DNA from: Streptomyces sp. 840.1
GTDB lineage: Bacteria; Actinomycetota; Actinomycetes; Streptomycetales; Streptomycetaceae
Reading direction: 5' to 3'
DNA length: 64,000 bases
Assembly (NCBI RefSeq): GCF_003751445.1
Contig: NZ_RJUU01000001.1
Coordinates: forward strand, 1,369,001 to 1,433,000
Below the pieces are notes generated by a model that had not been told where the DNA came from, did not search any database, and worked only from the letters and a program-made list of their open reading frames with translations. This document shows, one piece after another, positions 5,805-19,874 of this stretch. Made by a program: the position numbers and the translations under genes. Position 1 is the stretch's first letter. The number at the start of each line of letters is the position of its first letter.

Positions 5805-7382
5805 TCAGAACAGGTTGACGTCGGCGAACCTGAGGACCGCCTGGGGTGCGCCGGAGAGGGCGATGCCGGCGACGGCGGTGATGACGATCGCGGCGGTGAG
5901 CGGTGCCGGGGCGCGGTGGTGGGTGGCGGGGCGCTGCTCCGTACCGTCCTGCGCGCCGTCCCGGGCTTCGTCCTCGGCGGGGCCGCGGAACAGGGCGGCG
6001 GTCCACTGGAGGTAGTAGTACAGCGCGATCACGACGTTGACGGCCATGACGACGGCGAGCCAGCCGAGTCCGGCGTCGACGGCCGCGGAGAAGACGGTGA
6101 CCTTGGCGAAGAGGCCGATGATGCCCGGCGGCAGTCCGGCCAGGCAGAGCAGGAAGAAGCCCAGGGTGAGGGCCGCCAGGGGGCGGGTGGCGTAGAGGTT
6201 GCGGTAGTCGGCCAGCCGGTTGCCGGGGCTGGTGCGGGCGACCAGGGCGGCGACCGCGAAGGCGCCGAGATTCACGACGGCGTACATCAGCGCGTACGCG
6301 ACGGTGGAGCCGATCTGCCGGTCGCCGGCGTACGCGGCGGCGGCGATCGGCACCAGGAGGTAGCCGGCCTGGGCGACGGACGACCAGGCCAGGAGGCGTA
6401 CGGCGCTGCGCGCGCGGGTTGCGCTCTGGCGCAGGGCCGCGACGTTGCCGACGGTCATGGTGATCGCGGCGAGGACGGCGAGGGCGGGGCCCCAGACGTC
6501 CGCGTAGGAGGGGAACGCGACCACGGTGACGAGGATGAGGCCGGAGAAGCCGACCGCCTTGCCGACGACCGAGAGGTAGGCGGCGATCGGCAGCGGGGCG
6601 CCGACATAGGTGTCGGGGACCCAGAAGTGGAAGGGGGCGGCGGCCGTCTTGAAGGCGAAGCCGACGAGGGTGAGGGCGACGCCCGCCTCGGCGAGGGTGG
6701 AGAGCTGCCCGGGTACGTCGTCGAGGCGGGCGGCGATCTCCGTGAGGTGCAGGGTGCCGGTCGCCGCGTAGACGAAGCTCACGCCGAGCAGCATCACGGC
6801 GGTCGCGACGACGGAGGACAGGAAGAACTTCAGCGCGGCCTCGGAGGATCGCCGGTCTCCGCGCTTGATGCCGACGAGGGCGAACGCGGGCAGCGAGGCG
6901 ACTTCGAGGGCGACGACGAGGGTGGCGAGGTCGCGGGCGGCGGGCAGCAGCGCGGCACCGGCGGCGGAGGACAGCAGCAGGAACCAGAACTCGCCGGCCG
7001 GCAGTTTGCGGGTGTCCCCGATCGACAGCAGCGCGGTCAGCAGGGCGCCGCCGAGCACCAGGAGCTGGATGACCAGGGTGAAGTGATCGGCGGTGTAGCT
7101 GCAGGCGTGGGTGCCGGCGCTGAGGCAGAAGGTGGAGCGGTCGCCGTCGCGCAGCGGGAGGAGGAACAGGAGGGCGGCCACGAGGCCGGCGACGGCGCCG
7201 TAGCCGAGGAGCGGCTTGCGTTCCCTGGGTACGAAGAGGTCGGCGACCAGGACGACGAGGGCGACGGCGGCGACGGTGACCGGGGGCGCGATGGCGAGCC
7301 AGTCGACGGACTGGACGAGGCTGGTGGTGCTCTCGGCCGCGGTGTGGACGAGGTCGGTGGTGCTCTCGGCCGCTGTGGTCAC
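5805..7382 (-). CDS. nuoN: NADH-quinone oxidoreductase subunit N (second nuo operon)
   Basis: 525 residues, a 14-helix antiporter-like proton-pumping subunit of complex I (family: NuoL/M/N). Typical markers are the Lys/His-bearing helices in FAFKTAAAPFHFWVPDTYVG and LAWSSVAQAGYLL. Start is GTG 7382, overlapping the nuoM stop by 4 nt. The N-terminus is unusual: an 11-residue unit, TAAESTT(D/S)LV(H/Q), is repeated twice (33-nt DNA repeat, 7323-7378). A charged loop near the C-terminus (EDEARDGAQDG) is also atypical. It is the last gene of the operon. Confidence 0.93.
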   Translation of the reverse strand: MTTAAESTTDLVHTAAESTTSLVQSVDWLAIAPPVTVAAVALVVLVADLFVPRERKPLLGYGAVAGLVAALLFLLPLRDGDRSTFCLSAGTHACSYTADHFTLVIQLLVLGGALLTALLSIGDTRKLPAGEFWFLLLSSAAGAALLPAARDLATLVVALEVASLPAFALVGIKRGDRRSSEAALKFFLSSVVATAVMLLGVSFVYAATGTLHLTEIAARLDDVPGQLSTLAEAGVALTLVGFAFKTAAAPFHFWVPDTYVGAPLPIAAYLSVVGKAVGFSGLILVTVVAFPSYADVWGPALAVLAAITMTVGNVAALRQSATRARSAVRLLAWSSVAQAGYLLVPIAAAAYAGDRQIGSTVAYALMYAVVNLGAFAVAALVARTSPGNRLADYRNLYATRPLAALTLGFFLLCLAGLPPGIIGLFAKVTVFSAAVDAGLGWLAVVMAVNVVIALYYYLQWTAALFRGPAEDEARDGAQDGTEQRPATHHRAPAPLTAAIVITAVAGIALSGAPQAVLRFADVNLF

Positions 7383-8953
7383 GACTTGCCTCCTGCGAGG
7401 AGCTTCTGCACGGCCGGGTCGGTGAGGCCGAGGAGGACGGCGGGCCACAGCCCGGCCAGGACGGTGAGGGCGGCGAGGGGGGTCCAGGCGGCGAACTCGT
7501 GGTGCTGGATGTCGGGGATCCGGTGCGGTTCCTCGCGCTTGGCGCCCATGCAGACGCGGCGCACCAGGATGAGCATGTACGCGGCGGTGAGCAGGGTGCC
7601 GAACGCGGCGACCGACATGAAGGTCAGGAAGGCGGGGCGGCTCAGGCCGTCGGCCGGGTCGAAGGCGCCGAACAGCGTGAGCATCTCGCCCCAGAACCCG
7701 GCGAGGCCGGGCAGGCCCAGGGAGGCGATCGCGGTGAACGCGAGGAGGCCGCCGAGGCGGGGCGCGCTGCCGTAGAGCGCGGCGCCGGTGGCGCCGGAGA
7801 GGGTGTCGAGGTCGGCGGTGCCGTAGCGGTCCTTGACCGCGCCGACCAGGAAGAACAGCAGGCCGGTGATGAGCCCGTGGGCGATGTTGGCGAAGAGCGC
7901 GCCGTTGACGCCGGTGGGAGTCATGCTCGCGATGCCGAGGAGTACGAAGCCCATGTGGCCGACGGAGGAGTACGCGATCAGGCGCTTCAGGTCGCCCTTG
8001 GCGCCGGGCCGGACGAGGGCCAGGCAGGCGAGCGATCCGTAGATGATGCCGGCGACCGCGAAGGCGGCGAGGTAGGGCGCGAAGGTGTGCATGCCGTCGG
8101 GGGCGATCGGGAGCAGGATCCGGACGAATCCGTACGTGCCCATCTTCAGCAGGACGCCCGCGAGGAGGACCGAGCCGACGGTCGGGGCGGCGGTGTGGGC
8201 GTCCGGGAGCCAGCTGTGCAGCGGCCACATCGGGGTCTTGACGGCGAGTCCGACGCCGATCGCGAGAACGGCGATGACCTGCACGGACGAGGTGAGGCCT
8301 CGGCCGTTGTCAGTGGCGAGTGCCACCATGTCGAAGGTGCCGCTCTTCAGTCCGATGAGGAGCAGCCCGAGCAGCATGACGACCGAGCCGAGCAGTGTGT
8401 AGAGGATGAACTTCCAGGCGGCCGCCTGCCTCTGCGCACCGCCCCAGCGGGCGATGAGGAAGTACATCGGGATGAGCACCATCTCGAACGCCAGGAAGAA
8501 CAGCAGCAGATCGAGGACGGCGAAGGTCGCGAGGGTGCCGGACTCCAGGACCAGGATCAGGGCGACGAAGGCCTTCGGGGAGGGGCCCGCAGGCAGCTTG
8601 AAGTAGCTGTGGAGCGCGCAGAGGAAGGTCAGCAGCGCGGTCAGTACGAGAAGGGGGAGCGAGATGCCGTCGATGCCGAGATGGATGCGGACGTCGAGCG
8701 CCGGGATCCAGCTGATGTCGGTGGTGGCCTGCATCTTCGACGGGTGGTCGTGGTCGAAGCCCAGGGCGAGCACGATCGCGGCGATGAGGATCACGCCGGT
8801 CACGGTCACGCCGTGGCGGAGCACCGCCTGGTCGGGGTTGCGGCCCTTGAGTCCGGGCGGGGCCGGGAGCAGGGCCGCGACGGCTCCGAGGAGCGGGGCG
8901 ACGACGATGAACGCCAGAAGGAACTGCATCACGGATGCGCTGATATCGATCAC
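7379..8953 (-). CDS. nuoM: NADH-quinone oxidoreductase subunit M (second nuo operon)
   Basis: 524 residues, antiporter-like membrane subunit. Diagnostic motifs include the glutamate-bearing AFEMVLIPMYFLIARWGG, KTPMWPLHSWLPDAHTAAPT and LKRLIAYSSVGHMGFVLLG. GTG 8953 lies 3 nt after the nuoL stop; an internal ATG eight codons on is an alternative start. Overlaps nuoN by 4 nt. It resembles, but is clearly diverged from, the nuoM of the main operon at 52.5-54.0 kb. Confidence 0.93.
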   Translation of the reverse strand: MIDISASVMQFLLAFIVVAPLLGAVAALLPAPPGLKGRNPDQAVLRHGVTVTGVILIAAIVLALGFDHDHPSKMQATTDISWIPALDVRIHLGIDGISLPLLVLTALLTFLCALHSYFKLPAGPSPKAFVALILVLESGTLATFAVLDLLLFFLAFEMVLIPMYFLIARWGGAQRQAAAWKFILYTLLGSVVMLLGLLLIGLKSGTFDMVALATDNGRGLTSSVQVIAVLAIGVGLAVKTPMWPLHSWLPDAHTAAPTVGSVLLAGVLLKMGTYGFVRILLPIAPDGMHTFAPYLAAFAVAGIIYGSLACLALVRPGAKGDLKRLIAYSSVGHMGFVLLGIASMTPTGVNGALFANIAHGLITGLLFFLVGAVKDRYGTADLDTLSGATGAALYGSAPRLGGLLAFTAIASLGLPGLAGFWGEMLTLFGAFDPADGLSRPAFLTFMSVAAFGTLLTAAYMLILVRRVCMGAKREEPHRIPDIQHHEFAAWTPLAALTVLAGLWPAVLLGLTDPAVQKLLAGGKS

Positions 8954-8956
8954 GGC

Positions 8957-10953
<1,997 letters not shown>

Positions 10954-10957
<4 letters not shown>

Positions 10958-11364
10958 GGGGTGGCCTCTGCCTTCTTTGCCTTCCCTGCCGGAGCAGTGG
11001 CCTGGTCTTCGGGGACTTCGGTGTCCCTGGCGTCGTCCGGGAGTTCCTCGGCCTCGTCGGTCTCGGCGGTGTCGCGGAGGCGGTCGATGTCGGAGCTGCC
11101 CCGGTTGCGGTACACGGCGAGGACGATGGCCAGGCCGATGCCGATCTCCGCCGCCGCGATGGCGATGGTGAACAGGGTGAGGGCCTGGCCGGAGTGCAGG
11201 GCGTCGCGCAGCCATACGTCGAACGCGACCAGGTTGAGGTTGACCGCGTTGAGCATCAGCTCGACGGACATCAGGACCAGGATCGCGTTGCGGCGCGCGA
11301 GGACCCCGTAGAGGCCGGTACAGAAGAGGAGGACGGCGAGCACGGCGGGATAGGCGAGGTGCAT
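10954..11364 (-). CDS. nuoK: NADH-quinone oxidoreductase subunit K (second nuo operon) with long tail
   Basis: 136 residues; the family norm is about 100. The first 95 residues carry the three helices and the essential glutamates ([31 protein letters not shown]). The remaining 40 residues are acidic then lysine/alanine-rich ([24 protein letters not shown]), probably a disordered cytoplasmic tail absent from the 99-residue copy at 56 kb. ATG 11364 shares one base with the nuoJ stop. Confidence 0.92.
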
Positions 11365-12065
11365 CAGCTGTTGTCCTCTCGGCTCTCGGCGGCCTGGCTC
11401 TTGGCTGCCTGGGACTTGGCTGCCTGGCTCTTGGCTCCCTGGGGCTTCGGGCCCTTGACCGCTTGCCCCTTGGCTGCCTGGGCCTTGGCTTCCTGGGCCT
11501 TGCGGGACAGGACGACCGCGCCGACGAGCGCTGCGAGCAGGAGGACGGAGAGCGCTTCGAAGGGCAGTACCCAGTGGCGGAAGAGGAAGGCGCCGGTGGC
11601 CTCGGTGGAGCCCTGGGCCGGTCCGTCCAGTTCGATCCAGGTGGTGCGGAAGGCGTCGACGACGACCCATACGAGGGTGCCGGCGGCGGCGACCGCCACC
11701 GCGAGGGCGGCCCAGCGGTTCTCCGAATCGGCGTCCGGGGAGCGGCCGATGGGGGCCCTGGTGAGCATCAGGCCGAACAGCAGGAGGACGACGACGGAAC
11801 CGACGTAGATCAGTACCTGCACCCAGGCGATGAACTCGGCCGTGAGCAGCAGGTATTCGACGGCGAGCCCGCCGAGCGCGACGATCAGCCAGAGGGCCGC
11901 GTGCACCAGTTGTCTGGTCGTGACGGTGACGAGGGCCGCGCCGAGGGTGGCGATCCCGACCAGCACGAAAGCGATCTCGATGCCTGCCGGGGAGAGGAAG
12001 CCCGGGTGGCTCCCGGCGGCGAGGACGTGGGCGGGGCCGTCGGCGAGGACGTGGACGGCGATCAC
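11364..12065 (-). CDS. nuoJ: NADH-quinone oxidoreductase subunit J (second nuo operon) with repeat tail
   Basis: 233 residues. Five membrane helices with the NuoJ signature [20 protein letters not shown]; this subunit helps connect the quinone site to the pumping arm. After about residue 185 it ends in a low-complexity lysine/alanine tail including [18 protein letters not shown], encoded by 15-nt repeat units between 11391 and 11499. ATG 12065 overlaps the nuoI stop by 4 nt. The tail has no counterpart in the main-operon NuoJ. Confidence 0.92.
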
Positions 12066-12679
12066 GCCTGGCCCTCCTGGTCCGTCGGGGCGGGATCCGT
12101 CGGGGCGGGATCCGTCGGAGTGGGCGGGGCGGCCTCGGCGGCGGCCTCCTGCTCACGCTTGGTCCGGAGCTTGTCCGCCGTCTTGCGTGCGGCGGCGATC
12201 TCCTTCGGCTCCTCGGCCCCCGGATCGAGCGCCGGCGGCTCCGGCACCGTCCACATCCACTCGCGGAGCTTGTCGCGCTCGTGGGTGAGTTCGAGGATGT
12301 CCGTCTCCGCGTACTCGAACTCCGGCGACCAGAACAGCGCGTCGAACGGGCACACCTCGATGCAGATACCGCAGTACATGCAGAGCGAGAAGTCGATGGC
12401 GAAGCGGTCCAGGACGTTACGGCTGCGCTCGCGCCCGCCCGGGGCGGCGGCGGGCACCGTCTCCTTGTGGGAGTCGATGTAGATGCACCAGTCCGGGCAC
12501 TCACGGGCGCAGAGCATGCAGACCGTGCAGTTCTCCTCGAAGAGGGCGATGACGCCTCGGGAGCGGGGCGGCAGTTCGGGCTGCGCGTCCGGGTACTGGG
12601 CGGTGACGGTCTTCTTCGTCATCGTCCGCAGGGTGACGGCGAGACCCTTGGCCAGGCCTGCGCCGGGGATCGGGGGCAC
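12062..12679 (-). CDS. nuoI: NADH-quinone oxidoreductase subunit I, 2x[4Fe-4S] (second nuo operon)
   Basis: 205 residues. Two complete ferredoxin-type clusters: [12 protein letters not shown] and [12 protein letters not shown], the N6a/N6b electron relay that hands electrons to NuoB. The peripheral arm therefore keeps part of its redox chain although NuoE/F/G are absent from the operon. The C-terminus has three exact-to-near 15-nt repeats (12081-12125) encoding TDPAP-type units. The start is GTG 12679 sharing a base with the nuoH stop (TAGTG). Confidence 0.92.
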
Positions 12680-13647
12680 TAGTTGATCGCCACCTTCACG
12701 ATGCCGGTGAGCGCGATCTGCGCGAGAGCGAGCGGGATGAGCGTGGTCCAGGCGAGCTTCTGCAGCTGGTCCTCGCGGAGACGGGGATAGCTCACGCGCA
12801 GCCAGATGACGACGAAGGCGAGGACGGCGACCTTCAGGAGGGTCCAGACCCAGCCCAGTCCGTCGGCGCCCAGCGGACCGTGCCAGCCGCCCAGGAAGAG
12901 GACGGTGGTCAGCGCGCACAAGACGACGATGCCCGCATACTCGGCGAGCAGGAACAGGGCGAACCGTAGGCCGGTGTACTCGGTGTACGCGCCGAAGATG
13001 ATCTCCGAGTCCGCGATCGGCATGTCGAACGGCGGGCGCTGGAGTTCGGCGAGCCCTGCCACGAAGAAGACCAGGGCCCCGACGATCTGCCACGGCAGCC
13101 ACCACCACTCGAAGGCGTCGAGGATGCCGGGGAGCGAGACCGTGCCGGCCGCCATCGCCACCGAGGCGGCGGCGAGCAGCATCGGCAGCTCGTACGCGAG
13201 CAGCTGGGCGGCGGTGCGGATCCCGCCGAGCAGCGAGAACTTGTTGGCCGATGCCCAGCCCGCCATGAGCGAGCCGAGCACGCCGATGCCCATCACCGCG
13301 AGCACGAAGAAGATGCCCGCGTCGACCACCTGGCCGACCGCGCCCTCGCCGGGGCCGATCGGGATGGCCACGAGTACGAGCAGGTACGGGAGCAGCGCGA
13401 CGGCGGGGGCCAGCTGGAAGACGCGGCGGTCGGCCTCGGCCGGGACGATGTCTTCCTTCTGTACGAACTTCACGCCGTCCGCGACGAGCTGGGCCCAGCC
13501 GTGGAAACCGCCGGCGTACATGGGTCCCAGGCGGCCCTGCATGTGGGCCATCACCTTGTGTTCGGCCTGGCCGACGACGAGGGGGACGACCATGAACACC
13601 GCGAACACGATGACGAGGCGGAGGGCGACGTCCAGTACGTCGTTCAC
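12679..13647 (-). CDS. nuoH: NADH-quinone oxidoreductase subunit H (second nuo operon)
   Basis: 322 residues, eight or so membrane helices; NuoH forms the membrane part of the quinone chamber. The region that reads [15 protein letters not shown] in the main copy reads [15 protein letters not shown] here, and the acidic loop is [18 protein letters not shown] rather than [18 protein letters not shown]. The fold is retained but the quinone-facing residues differ. GTG 13647 overlaps nuoC by 4 nt. It directly follows nuoC where nuoD, E, F and G would normally lie. Confidence 0.92.
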
Positions 13648-14825
13648 TCGGTATCGCCTCCGGCGGGGGTGTTGGGTGTGTCGGGGGCTTCAGGTGTGTC
13701 GGGTGTCTTGGGTGTGTCTGCGGCGTCGGCTGTGTCTGTCGTGTTGGCCGCGTCTGCCGCGTTGGGGGGTTGCTCGGTGGGGGTGCCGCTGCGCGGGGGC
13801 TCTCCCCTGCCCGCCCCTTCCCGAACCGGGGGCTCCGCCCCCGGGCCCCCGCTCCTCAAACGCCGGAGGGGCTGGGGCGGTGCCGAATCAGCGGCATCGG
13901 CAGCGGCATCGGCGTCAGCCGGAGCCCCGGCATCCCGGTCCGCTGCGTCGTCGAAGGCCGGGCGGGCGTTGTGCCAGGGTGCGTCCGTCGCCGGAGCGGG
14001 CGCAGGGGCCGGTGCGTCCGTGTTCGGAGCAGTCGCATCCGTACCCGGGGCCGGGCCCGAAGCCCGTGTGGCCCGGGGCGCCGTCCCCGGGGCCGGGCTC
14101 GGCGCGGTGTCGGGGGCTACGGCCGGCCGCTGGCCCGCCGAGCCGTCGCTCGCGCTGCGGGTGCGGCGGGCCGGGCGGTCGCCCGCCGGCCTCGCCGCGC
14201 GGGCGGGGCGGGCGGGGGCAGGCGGGAGCTGGCCCTTCAGCGGGCCCCATTCGTTCGGGTCGGGGACGCCGGGCGGCAGCATCGTGCGGCGCTTCGGGCC
14301 GCCGTGCTCCGACTCGCCCGGCTCCTTGGCGCCCGGCCAGGCCTTCGCCACGCGGGCCGCCAGGACGAAGTCCTTGCGCAGCGGGTGGCCCTCGAAGCCC
14401 TCGGGCAGCAGCAGGGGAACCAGGTGCGGGTGGCCGTCGAAGCCGATGCCGAACATCTCGTGGGTCTCGCGCTCGTGCCAGGCGGCGCCCGCGTAGACGC
14501 CGATCGCGCTGGGCAGCACCGCGGCCTCGTGCGGAACGGTCGTGCGGACCAGCAGCCGGCGGACCGCAGGGCCGGGGCCGGCACGGTCGGGCAGCGCGAC
14601 GAGATGGGCGCAGACCCGGAAGCCCGTGCCCGGTTCGTCGACGGCGCTCAGCCAGTCGAAGTAGGTGCAGCCGAGGCGGTCGCGGGCCGTTTCGAGCGCG
14701 GCGATCCAGGACGCGGGTGGCACGTCGACGGTCAGCAGTTCGTACGACTGCTCCGCCGTGGCGTCCTCGCCGAAGATCTCGGCGACGGCGTCCGGCAGCC
14801 GGTCGTAGCTCTCGGCGGCGATCAC
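13644..14825 (-). CDS. nuoC: NADH-quinone oxidoreductase subunit C (second nuo operon) with ~180-residue disordered tail
   Basis: 393 residues. Residues 1-200 are a normal NuoC (30 kDa) domain: [46 protein letters not shown], ending [13 protein letters not shown]. The rest is Pro/Ala/Asp/Thr-rich and repetitive ([20 protein letters not shown]), without a recognisable domain. A dispersed Streptomyces-type repeat (13808-13880) is translated inside this tail. NuoC normally docks with NuoD, which is missing here. ATG 14825 overlaps the nuoB stop by 4 nt. Confidence 0.88.
13808..13880. repeat. Dispersed Streptomyces-type palindromic repeat inside nuoC
   Basis: The stretch contains CCCTTCCCGAACC, a GGGGGCTCCGCCCCC hairpin, CCCCCGCTCCTCAAACGCC and GGAGGGGCTGG, matching from memory a repeat very common in Streptomyces intergenic DNA. 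Here it lies within the open nuoC frame and is translated ([18 protein letters not shown]) without breaking it. Identity to the genomic repeat family is recalled, not searched. Confidence 0.65.
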
Positions 14826-15532
14826 TTCCCCTCCTCCTTCGGGGAGTCGGGGGCGGAACCGGTCACGGACGGCGCGGCGACCAGTCCGCTGCGCAGCGCG
14901 GCGGTGGACGGACGGGCCGCGCCGCCCGTCCCGTAGCGCTCGCTGAGCGACTCGCGGGCGATCTTCTCCTGGAGTTTGAGGATCCCCTGGAGCAGGGCCT
15001 CCGGCCGGGGCGGGCAGCCGGGGACGTAGACGTCGACCGGGATGATCTGGTCGACCCCCTTCGTCACCGAGTACGAATCCCAGTACGGGCCGCCGCAGTT
15101 GGAGCAGGCGCCGAAGGAGATGACGTACTTGGGCTCGGGCATCTGCTCGTACAGGCGCTTCACCGCCGGGGCCATCTTGTCCGTCACCGTGCCGGAGACG
15201 ATCATGAGGTCGGCCTGGCGGGGGCCCGGCGCGAACGGGATCACGCCGAGCCGGATGAAGTCGTGGCGCGCCATGGAAGCGGCGATGAACTCGATCGCGC
15301 AGCAGGCGAGTCCGAAGTTGAAGACCCAGAGGCTGTAGCGGCGTCCCCAGTTGAGGACCACCTTCATCGGCTCGGGCGCGAGCCGGGACAGCACTCCGAG
15401 CCGCTTCGGCTCGGGAAGGAACGTGGGCACGGGTTCGGGCCCGGGTACGGGTACGGGTGCGGGACCCGATTCCGGTCCCGACTGCGGCTGGGGCTGCGGC
15501 TGACCGGCTGACGACGGGCTCGTCACGTCCAT
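14822..15532 (-). CDS. nuoB: NADH-quinone oxidoreductase subunit B, cluster N2 (second nuo operon)
   Basis: 236 residues; the core is about 160. All ligands for the terminal [4Fe-4S] cluster N2 are present: the tandem cysteines in GLACCAIEF, then [14 protein letters not shown] and [13 protein letters not shown]. There is an N-terminal extension of about 45 residues rich in Pro/Gln/Gly ([22 protein letters not shown]) and a C-terminal extension of about 40. ATG 15532 lies 10 nt inside the end of nuoA. The more upstream open frame is antisense noise. Confidence 0.93.
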
Positions 15533-15933
15533 TCGAGGACGCCCTTCTTCCATGCGTAGAGCAGTCCCACGGCCAGGAAACCGAGGAAGATGAACATTTC
15601 CACCAGCGTCGTCGCGCCGTATCCGGGCGCGGCGAAGACGGTCGCCCAGGGGAACAGGAAGATCGAGTCGACGGCGAAGATCACGTACAGGAAGGCGTAC
15701 ACGTAATAACGGACCTGGGTGTGGGCCCAGCCCTCCCCCACGGGGTCCACGCCGCACTCGTACGTGAGGAGTTTCTCCGGCGTCGGGACCACCGGGCGCA
15801 TCAGCCGGCCGGCTCCGAAGGCGACGGCGACGAACAGCACCCCGACCACGGCGAGCAGTCCGACGACCGAGTAGCTGTGGAAGTACTCCGACGCGAGAAC
15901 GGCCGGTCCCGACAGGTCCGCAACGTCCGTCAC
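15523..15933 (-). CDS. nuoA: NADH-quinone oxidoreductase subunit A (second nuo operon)
   Basis: 136 residues, three membrane helices with the conserved cysteine-containing loop [28 protein letters not shown], which in complex I lines the quinone-chamber entrance and joins NuoH and NuoD. First gene of the ten-gene minus-strand operon A-B-C-H-I-J-K-L-M-N. The GTG start at 15933 follows GAGGGGGCG. It is divergent from the sensor-kinase gene at 16103. Confidence 0.93.
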
Positions 15934-16102
15934 GTCCGCCCCCTCGCTCCCTCAAACCTGTTCGACGATCTGTACGCACGGGAGTCTAGGCCCTGTAAAG
16001 GAACAGTAAGCAGTCGCGTCGTGCAACGGGTGGGGTTATCCCCACTTCACGTCACCCACGAGCCCCATGGCGTCCGGATGCCCCACCCGGCAGGCTGGGT
16101 AT
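15934..16102. promoter_or_regulatory. Divergent promoter region, nuoA (second operon) / sensor kinase
   Basis: 169 nt separating two divergent starts. On the minus strand a TAGACT hexamer (15983-15988) fits a Streptomyces -10 for nuoA, but without a clear -35 at the right distance. On the plus strand GGGTATATGACC directly abuts the kinase ATG, so any promoter there lies very close. No Rex-type TTGTGAA palindrome was seen. Confidence 0.35.
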
Positions 16103-17314
16103 ATGACCATGAGCCCGCAGGTACCCGGCAACGACCGGCCGCCGCCCGTCCGCATCGCCTTCGACACGTACACGTGGAAGGAGATCGCGCATCTCCTCGC
16201 CAACCTCCCGATGGCGATCCTCGGGTTCATCTACTCGGTGCTCATGATCGGCATCGGCGTCGGGCTCGCGGTCACGGTGATCGGGCTGCCCCTGCTGGCC
16301 GCCGGTCTCCAGGGTTCGCGGCTGATCGGCCGGATGGAGCGCGGCCGGGCCCGGGGGCTGCTCGGGGTACGGATCGACGAGCCGAGCCCGATGGCCCGGG
16401 TCCGCCGCGAGGAGGGGTTCTTCGCCTGGCTGTGGTCGAGCCTCAAGGACCCGGTGGGCTGGCGCGCGGTGCTGTACTCCTTCATCCGGCTGCCGTGGGG
16501 CGTGCTCACCTTCGCGGTGACGCTCGTGAGCCTCTTCGTCCTGTGGCCGGTACTCCCCTATACGGCGCGGTTCATGGCCAACGCCGACCGGGGCATGGTG
16601 CGCGGGCTGCTGTCGCCCTCCGACGAGCTGGAACGCCGCATCGCGGAGCTGGAGTCGGACCGGGGCGTGGTCGTCGACACCGCCGCCGCCGACCTGCGCC
16701 GCATCGAACGCGACCTCCACGACGGCGCCCAGGCCCGCCTCGTCGCCCTCGCGATGGGGCTCGGTCTCGCAAAGGAGAAGCTGACCGACGATCCGGAGGC
16801 CGCGGCCAGGATGGTCGACGAGGCGCACGGCGAGGTCAAGGTCGCCCTCCAGGAACTCCGTGATCTCGCCCGGGGCATCCACCCCGCCGTCCTCACCGAC
16901 CGCGGCCTGGACGCCGCACTCTCCGCCATCGCCTCCCGCTGCACCGTGCCCGTCACGGTGGGGGTGGATCTGCCGGGCCGGCCCGCGCAGGCCATCGAGG
17001 GCATCGCGTACTTCACCGTCTCCGAGCTGCTCCAGAACGTCAGCAAGCACAGCGGGGCGCGCACGGCCTCCGTCGACGTGTGGCGGACGGCGGACCGGCT
17101 GCTGATCCAGGTCACCGACGACGGACGCGGCGGCGCCTCGATGGACGGCGGTACGGGGATGTCGGGGCTGGCCGAGCGGCTGGGCGCCGTCGACGGGCTG
17201 TTCGTCCTCGACTCGCCGCCCGGCGGCCCGACCACCGTGACGGCGGAGCTGCCCTGGCGCGACCGGGAGAACGAGCATGCCGCCGCCACCCGCGGCCGCC
17301 TGGAGAAGGCGTAA
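16103..17314 (+). CDS. Membrane sensor histidine kinase (HisKA_3 type), copy 1
   Basis: 403 residues. An N-terminal sensor region with two pairs of membrane helices (about 20-70 and 110-155), then a linker, the HisKA_3 dimerisation/phosphoacceptor helix (IERDLHDGAQARL, His206), and a C-terminal ATPase with the N box region ELLQNVSKHS and G box DDGRGG. Partner is presumably the LuxR regulator at 19200. ATG 16103 fits the sensor start; the open frame extends 12 codons upstream. From the linker onward it is almost identical to copy 2, while the sensor parts differ. Confidence 0.9.
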   Translation: MTMSPQVPGNDRPPPVRIAFDTYTWKEIAHLLANLPMAILGFIYSVLMIGIGVGLAVTVIGLPLLAAGLQGSRLIGRMERGRARGLLGVRIDEPSPMARVRREEGFFAWLWSSLKDPVGWRAVLYSFIRLPWGVLTFAVTLVSLFVLWPVLPYTARFMANADRGMVRGLLSPSDELERRIAELESDRGVVVDTAAADLRRIERDLHDGAQARLVALAMGLGLAKEKLTDDPEAAARMVDEAHGEVKVALQELRDLARGIHPAVLTDRGLDAALSAIASRCTVPVTVGVDLPGRPAQAIEGIAYFTVSELLQNVSKHSGARTASVDVWRTADRLLIQVTDDGRGGASMDGGTGMSGLAERLGAVDGLFVLDSPPGGPTTVTAELPWRDRENEHAAATRGRLEKA

Positions 17315-17344
17315 GCCATAGGGCCGCAGCACCGCAGCACCCGG

Positions 17345-17364
17345 GGTGGCGGAGCCGCGCCACC
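17345..17364 (+). terminator. Short hairpin after kinase copy 1
   Basis: GGTGGCG pairs with CGCCACC around a six-base loop, 30 nt after the kinase stop. No T-run follows, so this is a weak candidate terminator. The rest of the 271-nt gap to the next gene (17315-17585) shows no gene. Confidence 0.3.
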
Positions 17365-17585
17365 GCACGACCGGCCCGGACGCCTCCCATGGTGGGGAAA
17401 ACCCCCGGCCGAAGAGGGAGACCGGCCTCATGGTGCGCCGCCGCCCGGCACAGCACCCTTGAAGCAGTACGGCACGCGTGACCCACCGCCTCCGCCACCA
17501 CCGCCTCCGCACCTGCGGAGACGCGTACGGAACGCGTGGCAGCGGCACCCCGGCACAATCAGAAGAGCAGACGCGGAAGAAACGG

Positions 17586-18983
17586 ATGGACGCCATGGCC
17601 ATGGCATACGGACCGGACACACGGGACCAGCAGCGCTCCGGCACCGGCTTCGACACCGGCTTCGGCACCGGTCCGGGAGCCGGGAACGACCGTCCCGAGC
17701 CCAGGCACGTGGTCCCCGCCGTACTGCGCGCCCCCTTCGAGGGCCGGACCTGGCGCGAGACCACGTATCTGCTGCTCAGCATGCCCCTCAGCATCGTGTT
17801 CTTCTGCTTCGCGATCACCATGACGACGCTGGGTGCCGGCCTGCTCATCACCTTCCTGGGGGTTCCGGTGCTGGCCGCCGCACTGGCGATGTGCCGCGGG
17901 TTCGGCGCGCTGGAGCGGGCCAGGGCCCGGGGGCTGCTGCGGCTCGACGTGGCGTCGCCCGCACCGGTGCGGGGGCGGACCGGCGGGCTGATGTCGTGGG
18001 TCGGGGCGGTCCTGAAGAGCGGGGTGTCCTGGCGGCACCTGCTCTACTCCCTGCTGCACCTGCCGTGGGCGGTCTTCGGCTTCGTCGTCACGACGGCCCT
18101 GTGGTCCTGGGGCCTGGCGGCCTTCACCTACCCGGCGTGGCACTGGATCTTCCCGGCGTACACGGGCGTCGAGGGGGTCCAGCTGTACGGGGACGACGGC
18201 CACCAGATCTATCTGGACTCCCCCGCCGAGCTGGCCCTGACCAGCGCGGTCGGGCTGCTGTTCGTGCTGCTCACCCCGTGGATCGTGCGCGCTCTGACCT
18301 CGGTGGACCGGCTGATGGTGACCGGGCTGCTCAGCCCGTCCCGGCTGGCGACGCGGGTCACCGAGCTGGAGTCGGACCGGGGCGTGGTCGTCGACACCGC
18401 CGCCGCCGACCTGCGCCGCATCGAACGCGACCTCCACGACGGCGCCCAGGCCCGCCTCGTCGCCCTCGCCATGGATCTGGGGCTGGCCAAGGAGAAGCTG
18501 ACGGCCGACCCGGAGGCCGCGGCCAAGATGGTCGACGAGGCGCACGGCGAGGTCAAGGTCGCCCTCCAGGAACTCCGCGACCTGGCCCGGGGCATCCACC
18601 CGGCAGTCCTCACCGACCGCGGCCTGGACGCCGCGCTCTCCGCCATCGCCTCCCGCTGCACCGTCCCCGTCACGGTCGAGGTCGACCTGACGTCCCGGCC
18701 CGCGCAGGCCATCGAGGGCATCGCGTACTTCACCGTCTCGGAACTGCTCCAGAACGTCAGCAAGCACGCCCACGCCACCCGCGCCTCCGTCGACGTATGG
18801 CGGACGGCGGACCGCCTGATGCTCCAGGTCACCGACGACGGACGCGGCGGCGCCGGCCTGACGTCGGGCAGCGGCCTGGCCGGTCTGACGGAGCGGCTGG
18901 ACGCGGTGGACGGCATCCTGGTCGTCGAGTCCCCGGTGGGCGGCCCGACCAAGATCACGGCCGAACTCCCCTGGCGCGGCTGA
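17586..18983 (+). CDS. Membrane sensor histidine kinase (HisKA_3 type), copy 2
   Basis: 465 residues from ATG 17586, preceded by GGAAGAAACGG. Sensor region with two helix pairs (about 60-110 and 150-190) plus an extracellular loop with GVEGVQLYGDDGHQIYLDS that copy 1 lacks. The phosphoacceptor is His284 in IERDLHDGAQARL; ATPase motifs are ELLQNVSKHAHA and DDGRGGAG. The transmitter half is a near-copy of the upstream kinase, long stretches being identical at DNA level. It lies nearest the response-regulator gene, so it may be the primary partner, with copy 1 sharing or competing. Confidence 0.9.
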   Translation: MDAMAMAYGPDTRDQQRSGTGFDTGFGTGPGAGNDRPEPRHVVPAVLRAPFEGRTWRETTYLLLSMPLSIVFFCFAITMTTLGAGLLITFLGVPVLAAALAMCRGFGALERARARGLLRLDVASPAPVRGRTGGLMSWVGAVLKSGVSWRHLLYSLLHLPWAVFGFVVTTALWSWGLAAFTYPAWHWIFPAYTGVEGVQLYGDDGHQIYLDSPAELALTSAVGLLFVLLTPWIVRALTSVDRLMVTGLLSPSRLATRVTELESDRGVVVDTAAADLRRIERDLHDGAQARLVALAMDLGLAKEKLTADPEAAAKMVDEAHGEVKVALQELRDLARGIHPAVLTDRGLDAALSAIASRCTVPVTVEVDLTSRPAQAIEGIAYFTVSELLQNVSKHAHATRASVDVWRTADRLMLQVTDDGRGGAGLTSGSGLAGLTERLDAVDGILVVESPVGGPTKITAELPWRG

Positions 18984-19020
18984 CCACCACCCCCACCGAG
19001 CCCCCTCCACCCCGGCGAGC

Positions 19021-19096
19021 CCGGCTTCCCCGGCTTCCCCGGCTTCCCCGGCTTCCCCGGCTTCCCCGGCTTCCCCGGCTTCCCCGGCTTCCCCGG
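19021..19096. repeat. 9-bp tandem repeat, about 8.4 copies
   Basis: The unit CCGGCTTCC is repeated without a mismatch for 76 nt in the gap between kinase copy 2 and the response regulator. It sits in a 216-nt non-coding interval and is a likely slippage hotspot. Frames across it (Gly-Lys-Pro on minus) have no gene-like flanks. Confidence 0.9.
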
Positions 19097-19199
19097 CGGC
19101 GCAACCCTTCGAACGCTCGCGGCGTCACCGCCGATACTGGGATGCTGGATGCTGATCGGCATACGGGCGGGAACAGCTAGCGGTGGGGGAACAGACGTC

Positions 19200-19874
19200 G
19201 TGGTGGAGGACAGGGTGCGCGTAGTCATCGCCGAGGATTCGGTACTGCTCCGGGAGGGACTCACCCGGCTGCTGACCGATCTCGGTCATGACGTCGTGGC
19301 AGGGGTCGGGGACGCAGAGGCGCTGATCAAGACAGTGAGCGACCTCGCCGCCCAGGACGCGCTGCCCGACGTGGTGGTCGCGGACGTGCGGATGCCGCCG
19401 ACCCACACGGACGAGGGCGTGCGGGCCGCGGTGCGGCTCCGAAAGGAGTACCCGGGCATCGGGGTACTGGTCCTTTCGCAGTACGTCGAGGAGCAGTACG
19501 CCACCGAGTTGCTGGCCGGATCCAGCCGCGGCGTGGGGTACCTGCTGAAGGACCGGGTCGCCGAGGTCCGGGAGTTCGTGGACGCGGTGGTCCGGGTGGC
19601 GCAGGGCGGTACGGCGCTGGACCCCGAGGTGGTGGCGCAGCTGCTGGGCCGGAGCCGTAAGCAGGACGTACTGGCCGGGCTGACGCCCCGTGAGCGCGAG
19701 GTCCTGGGCCTGATGGCGGAGGGGCGGACCAACTCCGCGGTGGCAAAACAGCTGGTGGTGAGCGATGGCGCGGTGGAGAAGCACGTCAGCAACATCTTCC
19801 AGAAACTGGGGCTGTCCCCCAGTGACGGCGACCACCGGCGGGTGCTGGCCGTGCTGACCTACCTGAACTCCTGA
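19200..19874 (+). CDS. NarL/LuxR-family response regulator
   Basis: 224 residues. Receiver domain opening VRVVIAEDSVLLREGL with acidic pocket ED and phosphoacceptor Asp62 (VVVADVRMPP), conserved Lys in YLLKDRV, then a LuxR-type HTH at about 160-205 (LTPREREVLGLMAEGRTN, VEKHVSNIFQKLGL). GTG 19200 follows GGGGGA by about 9 nt; GTG 19203 and 19215 are close alternatives. Expected to be phosphorylated by one or both upstream kinases. The 216-nt separation including a tandem repeat suggests it may also have its own promoter. Confidence 0.92.
   Translation: MVEDRVRVVIAEDSVLLREGLTRLLTDLGHDVVAGVGDAEALIKTVSDLAAQDALPDVVVADVRMPPTHTDEGVRAAVRLRKEYPGIGVLVLSQYVEEQYATELLAGSSRGVGYLLKDRVAEVREFVDAVVRVAQGGTALDPEVVAQLLGRSRKQDVLAGLTPREREVLGLMAEGRTNSAVAKQLVVSDGAVEKHVSNIFQKLGLSPSDGDHRRVLAVLTYLNS

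Follow-up and report, generated by a model that had tools for sequence, protein, structure and literature searches.

The second nuo operon of Streptomyces sp. 840.1: a probable 11-subunit complex I with a separately encoded NuoD2 and an altered quinone site

The F420H2 dehydrogenase Fpo and cyanobacterial NDH-1 are both complex I cores without NuoEFG. The types of electron donor that serve these two enzymes are covered in PMC7771536 and PMC11238625 (PMC identifiers denote PubMed Central papers, cited here from excerpts); complex I of the D. hafniense type also lacks the NADH module (N-module), and ferredoxin, with pyruvate:ferredoxin oxidoreductase (PFOR), has been proposed as the donor there. 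In streptomycetes, a second set of nuo genes (nuo2) was reported in 2013 to include nuoA2, nuoB2, nuoD2 and nuoH2 to nuoN2, contiguous except for nuoD2, and was described as forming one operon, with an antisense RNA that covers nuoM2-nuoL2 (PMC3765725); the arrangement was restated in 2021 (PMC8388888). The existence of both the cluster and a separate nuoD2 in Streptomyces is already known from the earlier of these works. The subject of the present analysis is the nuo2 operon of Streptomyces sp. 840.1, located on the minus strand at positions 5805-15933 of a stretch of 64,000 nucleotides (the window), which displays the same contiguous nuoA2, nuoB2 and nuoH2-N2, a nuoD2 situated elsewhere, and no N-module.

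In the excerpts used here, the two streptomycete accounts include neither a methyltransferase gene nor the Trp and Glu changes described below, an in-operon form of nuoD2, a wider distribution, or nuoC2; likewise, a search of the literature, limited to openly licensed PMC papers, found neither the quinone-site signature nor the methyltransferase link. Sequence comparison establishes the gene set, the presence of a second NuoD that co-occurs with the operon, the position of its gene between nuoC2 and nuoH2 in other classes, and the residue changes. Taken together, they make it quite probable that nuo2 encodes an 11-subunit complex I devoid of N-module, with a relocated NuoD2, an altered quinone site and a linked gene of the NDUFAF7/MidA family.

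The operon and its eleventh subunit

All ten genes are present, in the order nuoA2-B2-C2-H2-I2-J2-K2-L2-M2-N2. The first, nuoA2 (15523..15933), encodes a protein of 136 amino acids (aa) recognized by PF00507 (E-value, E, 4e-32), and precedes nuoB2 (14822..15532, 236 aa), the N2-cluster subunit, assigned through PF01058, NCBIfam NuoB and alignment. The product of nuoC2 (13644..14825, 393 aa; PF00329) consists of a 30-kDa domain at residues 33-158 and a Pro/Ala-rich tail of ~230 aa. This gene overlaps nuoH2 (12679..13647, 322 aa; PF00146, E 2e-100) by 4 nucleotides (nt) at 13644..13647, the site occupied by nuoD in many operons of other actinobacterial classes. These are followed by nuoI2 (12062..12637, with an alternative start at 12622; 186-191 aa), which matches Fer4 families and scores below the cut-offs of NuoI models, nuoJ2 (11364..12065, 233 aa), nuoK2 (10954..11364, 136 aa; PF00420, NuoK), and the genes for three antiporter-like pumps, nuoL2 (8957..10957, 666 aa; PF00361, PF00662), nuoM2 (7379..8953, 524 aa; PF00361, with TIGR01972 over cut-off) and nuoN2 (5805..7382, 525 aa; PF00361). 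The Pfam scan covered nine of the operon proteins, and A, B, C, H, I (through Fer4), K, L, M and N all lie over the curated cut-offs; NuoJ2 was identified by NCBIfam NuoJ models, at a best E of 8e-32 that is below their curated cut-offs.

The initial annotation had described a tight gene order with overlaps of 1-10 nt, in which nuoC passes straight into nuoH. This description holds, with seven overlapping junctions (10, 4, 4, 4, 1, 4 and 4 nt), save for short gaps of 41-56 nt 5' of nuoI2 and 3 nt between nuoL2 and nuoM2. The retention of Fe-S ligands and pump subunits, also claimed there, is confirmed by the translations, in which the four Cys ligands of NuoB2 (CC, C and C, also seen in the NuoB alignment) and two CxxCxxCxxxC motifs (4Fe-4S) in NuoI2 are intact, and pump Glu and Lys residues are visible in NuoL2, NuoM2 and NuoN2, the choice of those that matter being our presumption. 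The ratio of non-synonymous to synonymous substitution rates (dN/dS) was computed against other Streptomyces for four operon genes and nuoD2; medians over 9-11 loci, two of which come from one genome, are 0.107 for nuoH2, 0.163 for nuoI2, 0.247 for nuoJ2 (first 175 residues) and 0.265 for nuoC2 (first 165), and that of nuoD2 is 0.094 over 37 loci. With the ligands kept, these values uphold the view that the operon is not a decayed copy. No NuoD, E, F or G was detected within it by translation or Pfam, as had been annotated, and the set differs from a 14-subunit NADH dehydrogenase, where NuoEFG accompany the other subunits. A canonical 14-gene nuo operon (genes called by reading frame, nuoD1 and nuoC1 by Pfam) begins in the same window at about 50.8 kb and continues past its end.

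The suggestion that a diverged NuoD be sought elsewhere proved fruitful, in that a 49-kDa family search of the genome returned two genes: nuoD1, in the main operon, and nuoD2 (G000:C1:2763035-2764177; L002:1498-2640; minus strand; Complex1_49kDa), which lies about 1.38 Mb from the nuo2 operon and whose product, of 380 residues, is 40% identical to NuoD1. Ten genes in the operon and nuoD2 elsewhere complete the 11-subunit set, NuoA, B, C, D and H-N. A Methyltransf_28 gene of uncertain start (L002:2661-3749, minus strand; PF02636, E 7e-16, over cut-off) is located 20 nt upstream of nuoD2. The large subunit of Group 4 membrane [NiFe] hydrogenases is defined by two CxxC nickel motifs, and CxxC is absent from the NuoD2 translation.

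Two tails were also observed among the operon proteins. Residues ~165-393 of NuoC2 form a Pro/Ala/Asp-rich extension of ~230 residues, probably disordered, behind a normal domain; in other genera (e.g. L079) the interval upstream of nuoH2 fits only a much shorter one. NuoJ2 (11364-12065) ends in a repetitive AKSQA tail.

Distribution and gene order

Co-occurrence was studied in genome samples with one genome per species, which are not independent of each other, using as cut-offs E 1e-75 for NuoD2 and at least 64% identity for NuoH2. NuoD2 is present in 99 of 99 genomes of the host's order, with 77-98% identity outside the own genome. Among 148 genomes of the class, NuoH2 occurs in 41, NuoD2 in 67 and both in 39 (Fisher p about 3e-15, uncorrected for relatedness); the two NuoH2 genomes that lack NuoD2, G112 and G200, are 72% and 80% complete assemblies. 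Identity to the query NuoD2 is 73-100% in the 39 genomes with NuoH2 and 40-78% in the 28 without. Where nuoH2 and nuoD2 share a contig, which is the case in seven genomes, the closest pair is 184 kb apart.

A check of 40 genomes revealed a NuoD1-type gene in 38 and a NuoF homolog in 39. G218, a Dermacoccus-like genome rated 100% complete, carries all ten operon genes and NuoD2 (93% identical to a protein named from Dermacoccus nishinomiyaensis, among the best 120 matches) as the only NuoD found, and neither NuoD1 nor a NuoF homolog was detected there (NuoF threshold E 1e-20). If this assembly is whole, its nuo2 complex cannot borrow NuoD or NuoF. The other genome without NuoD1, G130, is a fragmented assembly that has NuoF. 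Three further genomes (G151, G181 and G230), which had appeared to lack a 14-gene operon since no NuoH1 was seen at E 1e-50, were rejected as such cases upon detection of NuoD1 and NuoF.

Outside the class, 20 regions were fetched from 18 genomes, hand-chosen from the 80 matching genomes of the rest of the phylum, the two additional regions being the main operons of two of those chosen. Of the 18 genomes, 13 have an 11-gene operon with a NuoD2-type gene between nuoC2 and nuoH2; three have a stand-alone NuoD2-type gene with a methyltransferase gene in the same region, one is a cut contig that ends just past C2-D2, and one has a NuoD of another type in place. A separate nuoD2 is therefore found in a few genomes beyond the host's class as well. 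The initial annotation had itself listed, as a refuting observation, a NuoD-like protein encoded adjacent to the operon in close relatives; adjacent genes were indeed encountered, in related classes and not in closely related strains. A second set, from a named collection, was made up of the 80 relatives most similar to the query out of at least 580: 48 carry a NuoD of actinobacterial type, located between nuoC2 and nuoH2 in 14 and stand-alone in 33, and in the last nuoD2 is cut at its start, with nuoH2 next. The 11-gene nuo paralog of Candidatus (Ca.) Actinomarinales (PMC7771536), in which nuoD is within the operon, unlike in the host, probably belongs to the same clade; locus L161, titled Ca. 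Actinomarina, reads A2-B2-C2-D2-H2 to N2 and has the same Trp at the quinone site.

An unrooted tree of 58 NuoD rows (hits of fewer than 330 residues or interrupted by a stop codon were excluded, and some genes appear twice) separates 52 NuoD2-type rows from six other NuoD rows by one branch (100/99), and the 30 NuoD2 rows of the host's class cluster together (100/100). The simplest history would be one in which nuoD moved out of an 11-gene operon to a new site, where it came to be linked to the methyltransferase gene; the direct contact between nuoC and nuoH would then be the scar of its departure.

Orphan NuoD2 proteins, from genomes in which NuoH2 was not found, were also inspected. Of the reference residues, 85 are invariant in thirteen sampled sequences, Arg55, Trp78 and His29 among them; these sequences vary at other sites that are invariant in operon-associated proteins, such as Thr28, Gly30, Gly132 and Thr135. 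At least three switches between orphan and operon states are required by the tree among 29 rows, and three orphans match Motilibacter-named proteins, one of them exactly (among the best 120 matches). At the NuoD2 loci of such genomes (L059-L073), NuoD2 and a methyltransferase-family gene are retained where no other part of the complex was found, L066 (G114) being an exception owing to an assembly end; G114 itself was rejected as a genome without the operon, as nuoB2 and nuoC2 were found at a contig end. Several of these loci have folate and pantothenate genes alongside (named from translations). In G125 (L077:3583-8511), two NuoL-like antiporter genes, perhaps of Mrp type, directly adjoin nuoD2, and antiporter-like genes are also close to nuoD2 in L141 (Flexivirga).

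Quinone site and the Arg beside N2

The Tyr of NDUFS2 that binds the quinone head group is described as strictly conserved, mechanisms have been put forward in which it is the proton donor of the quinone, and cyanobacterial NdhH has the corresponding Tyr72 (PMC8119997; for the numbering of quinone-site residues across species, see PMC9503403). In alignment, Trp78 of NuoD2 takes the place of Tyr87 of Thermus Nqo4, and Nqo4 His38 is retained. In the best-80 set, all 48 actinobacterial rows have Trp, and each of the 32 rows with titles from other phyla, among them Bacillus- and Paenibacillus-titled relatives, has Tyr; one of the Trp rows, L167, is titled Acidobacteria and has the gene order of the Actinomycetota-titled loci. 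The His38 equivalent is present in 79 rows; the remaining one of the 80 is truncated. In the tree set, all 52 NuoD2-type rows have Trp and the six others Tyr. Of the quinone-site pair His38/Tyr87, NuoD2 thus keeps the His and has Trp for Tyr; since this pair does not bear on subunit make-up, nuo2 is filed here as a putative variant of 11-subunit complex I by composition and not as a standard member by mechanism.

NuoH2 displays a second change. The FDxPE... motif reads FDxP(I/V/L/T)... in all 40 NuoH2 rows (38 distinct genes), with FDMPIADSE in the host against FDMPESEGD in its NuoH1, and the Glu is retained in 9 of 9 NuoH1-type rows (8 distinct genes). We take the lost residue to be the equivalent of E. 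coli NuoH E216. Six Chloroflexi- or SAR202-titled relatives lack the NuoH Glu and have the NuoD Tyr, so that the Glu may have gone first. For L167 and L171, the NuoH entered in the 80-row set comes from the neighbouring 14-gene operon. The idea that Trp arose as a consequence of leaving the operon was rejected, since in-operon NuoD2 also has Trp. A change from Tyr to Trp at this site was not found in the literature searched. A clade with Trp, whose genes are reported as expressed and are under selection, would directly test mechanisms that employ Tyr as the proton donor. With respect to the D. hafniense type, from which it is set apart by description, the actinobacterial clade has the Trp, the linked methyltransferase gene and, in the host's class, a separate NuoD.

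A further difference between the two NuoD proteins of the host concerns the Arg site (METHYLTRANSFERASE), where NuoD2 reads HRG (Arg55, the Arg85 equivalent) and NuoD1 reads HTG, with Thr. In bovine complex I this Arg85 is symmetrically dimethylated, about 7 Å from N2, and Thermus has Thr at the position (PMC3750175); in human cells the dimethylation of NDUFS2 Arg85 is performed by NDUFAF7 (PMC3829151). The gene beside nuoD2 belongs to the same methyltransferase family, and NuoD2 has the same target Arg, in the HRG motif beside N2; unlike NDUFAF7-NDUFS2, the bacterial pair is known here from gene linkage and residue alone. Among the 148 class genomes, 61 gave a match to the PF02636 family, and NuoD2 is present in 57 of these; the two genes share a contig and are within 15 kb of each other in 51 of the 57, and are on different contigs in six. 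The methyltransferase gene is found within the fetched DNA at 31 of the 33 stand-alone nuoD2 loci (on the strand of nuoD2 in 17), and it immediately follows nuoN2 at 8 of the 10 actinobacterial loci where an in-operon nuoD2 and nuoN2 were found. Nothing on point regarding a bacterial NuoD methyltransferase was found in the papers searched. This linkage could provide a bacterial system in which to study the effect of Arg methylation next to N2, a subject that otherwise depends on NDUFAF7, the human assembly factor.

Electron transfer and competing explanations

In the mechanism that we propose, the eleven proteins would assemble into one complex, in which a reduced low-potential carrier, most likely ferredoxin, would feed the clusters of NuoI2. 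Electrons would pass from NuoI2 to N2 in NuoB2, and then to menaquinone, the actinobacterial quinone, in a cavity formed by NuoB2, NuoD2 and NuoH2; its reduction would drive proton pumping through NuoH2, J2, K2, L2, M2 and N2. By analogy with the action of NDUFAF7 on NDUFS2 Arg85, the methyltransferase may dimethylate Arg55 of NuoD2 near N2, and the change from Tyr to Trp together with the lost acidic residue of NuoH suggests that quinone is bound and protonated unlike in canonical complex I. The proposal of the initial annotation that the complex has a different electron donor is judged likely. Ferredoxin is considered the likeliest candidate because of proposals made for other 11-subunit enzymes (PMC11238625), and nuo2 offers an aerobic, genetically tractable host for the question of what feeds an 11-subunit complex I. 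A broader version, which we regard as tentative and rather doubtful, is that nuo2 represents a phylum-wide lineage that reduces quinone without the Tyr, through a Trp-lined pocket and an Arg beside N2 dimethylated by its own NDUFAF7-like enzyme, and that the NuoD2-methyltransferase pair has a further role that maintains it where the remainder of the complex was not found, for example in Motilibacter.

Several observations weigh against parts of this reading. Every row of the best-80 set, the 32 of Tyr type included, has the HRG Arg, which is thus not specific to the clade; E. coli has the same Arg in unmodified form (PMC3750175). The methyltransferase is assigned at the family level only (PF02636; best solved structure 4f3n_A, E 5e-6), four genomes have a PF02636 match without NuoD2, ten of the 67 NuoD2 genomes have no match at the cut-off (some of which are misses, given that tblastn detects the gene in G218), and it and nuoD2 are on opposite strands in 14 of the 31 stand-alone loci. 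In 28 of the 148 class genomes NuoD2 is present and NuoH2 was not found; six of these are less than 90% complete, but others are near-complete and one, G127, is a single contig whose only NuoH match (43% identical to NuoH2) is in a 14-gene operon, so that NuoD2 can persist without the nuo2 operon. As for ferredoxin, analogy is its basis. A 2-oxoacid:ferredoxin oxidoreductase, KorAB, is encoded divergently to nuoA2 in nine relative loci and about 4 kb upstream in the host, but KorA is widespread regardless of nuo2 (116 of 148 class genomes), and of the 41 NuoH2 genomes, 24 have it no more than 12 kb from NuoH2, 13 on another contig and one at a great distance, and in three it was not found. No enzyme of the POR_N family was found in G218, and in G127, in which no nuo2 was found, KorA stands beside the main operon; on these grounds KorAB was rejected as the dedicated donor.

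Other explanations of the locus were weighed against the same evidence. The initial annotation had offered the borrowing of NuoD (and NuoEFG) from the main operon, whereby NuoD1, and perhaps also NuoEFG, would combine with NuoB2, C2, H2 and the others in a hybrid complex of 14 subunits that has alternative pump subunits. The two operons are about 35 kb apart in the host, nearly all nuo2 genomes checked also carry NuoD1 and NuoF, and differential use of NuoL2/M2 in complex I has been proposed (PMC3765725); this explanation is nonetheless improbable and was left unsupported, in view of the dedicated NuoD2 that accompanies NuoH2 (39 of 41 genomes), of its place inside the operon in other classes (13 of 18), of G218, which has nuo2 and NuoD2 with no NuoD1 or NuoF found, and of the clade-specific quinone-site changes in both NuoD2 and NuoH2. 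Even less credible, to the point of being nearly negligible, is a functionless decaying duplicate: the 28 genomes with NuoD2 and no NuoH2 fit the idea that several lineages have lost the operon, but low dN/dS contradicts a relic for this genus, cofactor ligands and pump residues are intact, gene order is conserved across classes, and expression has been reported (PMC3765725).

Two further explanations concern the partners of the complex, and both are unlikely, the second slightly more so. F420 is made by Actinobacteria, and electrons could flow from F420H2 through a separate FpoF-like protein to an 11-subunit complex. PMC7771536 likens the EFG-less paralog of Ca. Actinomarinales to the methanosarcinal Fpo, and L161, with its in-operon D2, shares the Trp; NuoD2, however, scores 311.7 bits against the FpoD model and up to 401.3 bits against bacterial NuoD models, and no Fpo- or Ndh-specific subunit was identified, no family search having been aimed at such subunits or at FpoF-like proteins. 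Alternatively, nuo2 may not be a quinone reductase at all, but pass electrons to something else or act as a redox-gated ion transporter, a view that draws on the invariant Trp of the 48 actinobacterial rows, as opposed to the Tyr of the 32 others, and on replacement of the Glu throughout the NuoH2 rows. It is countered by retention of the His38 quinone ligand and of the B, D and H subunits with the entire pump arm, and by the Chloroflexi-titled relatives that still have Tyr without the NuoH Glu. An 11-subunit complex I that reduces quinone remains the preferred reading.

The surroundings of korA in the host present additional features. Between nuoA2 and korA lie genes for a NarL-type response regulator and two histidine kinases related to each other (16067-19874); korA is directly divergent to nuoA2 in a number of other genomes, including one from the same genus. 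A second korAB copy (L211:9424-12334) is located about 270 kb from that of the window (20117 to about 23160), with 97-98% DNA identity, in a 19-kb stretch of which nothing else matches the window.

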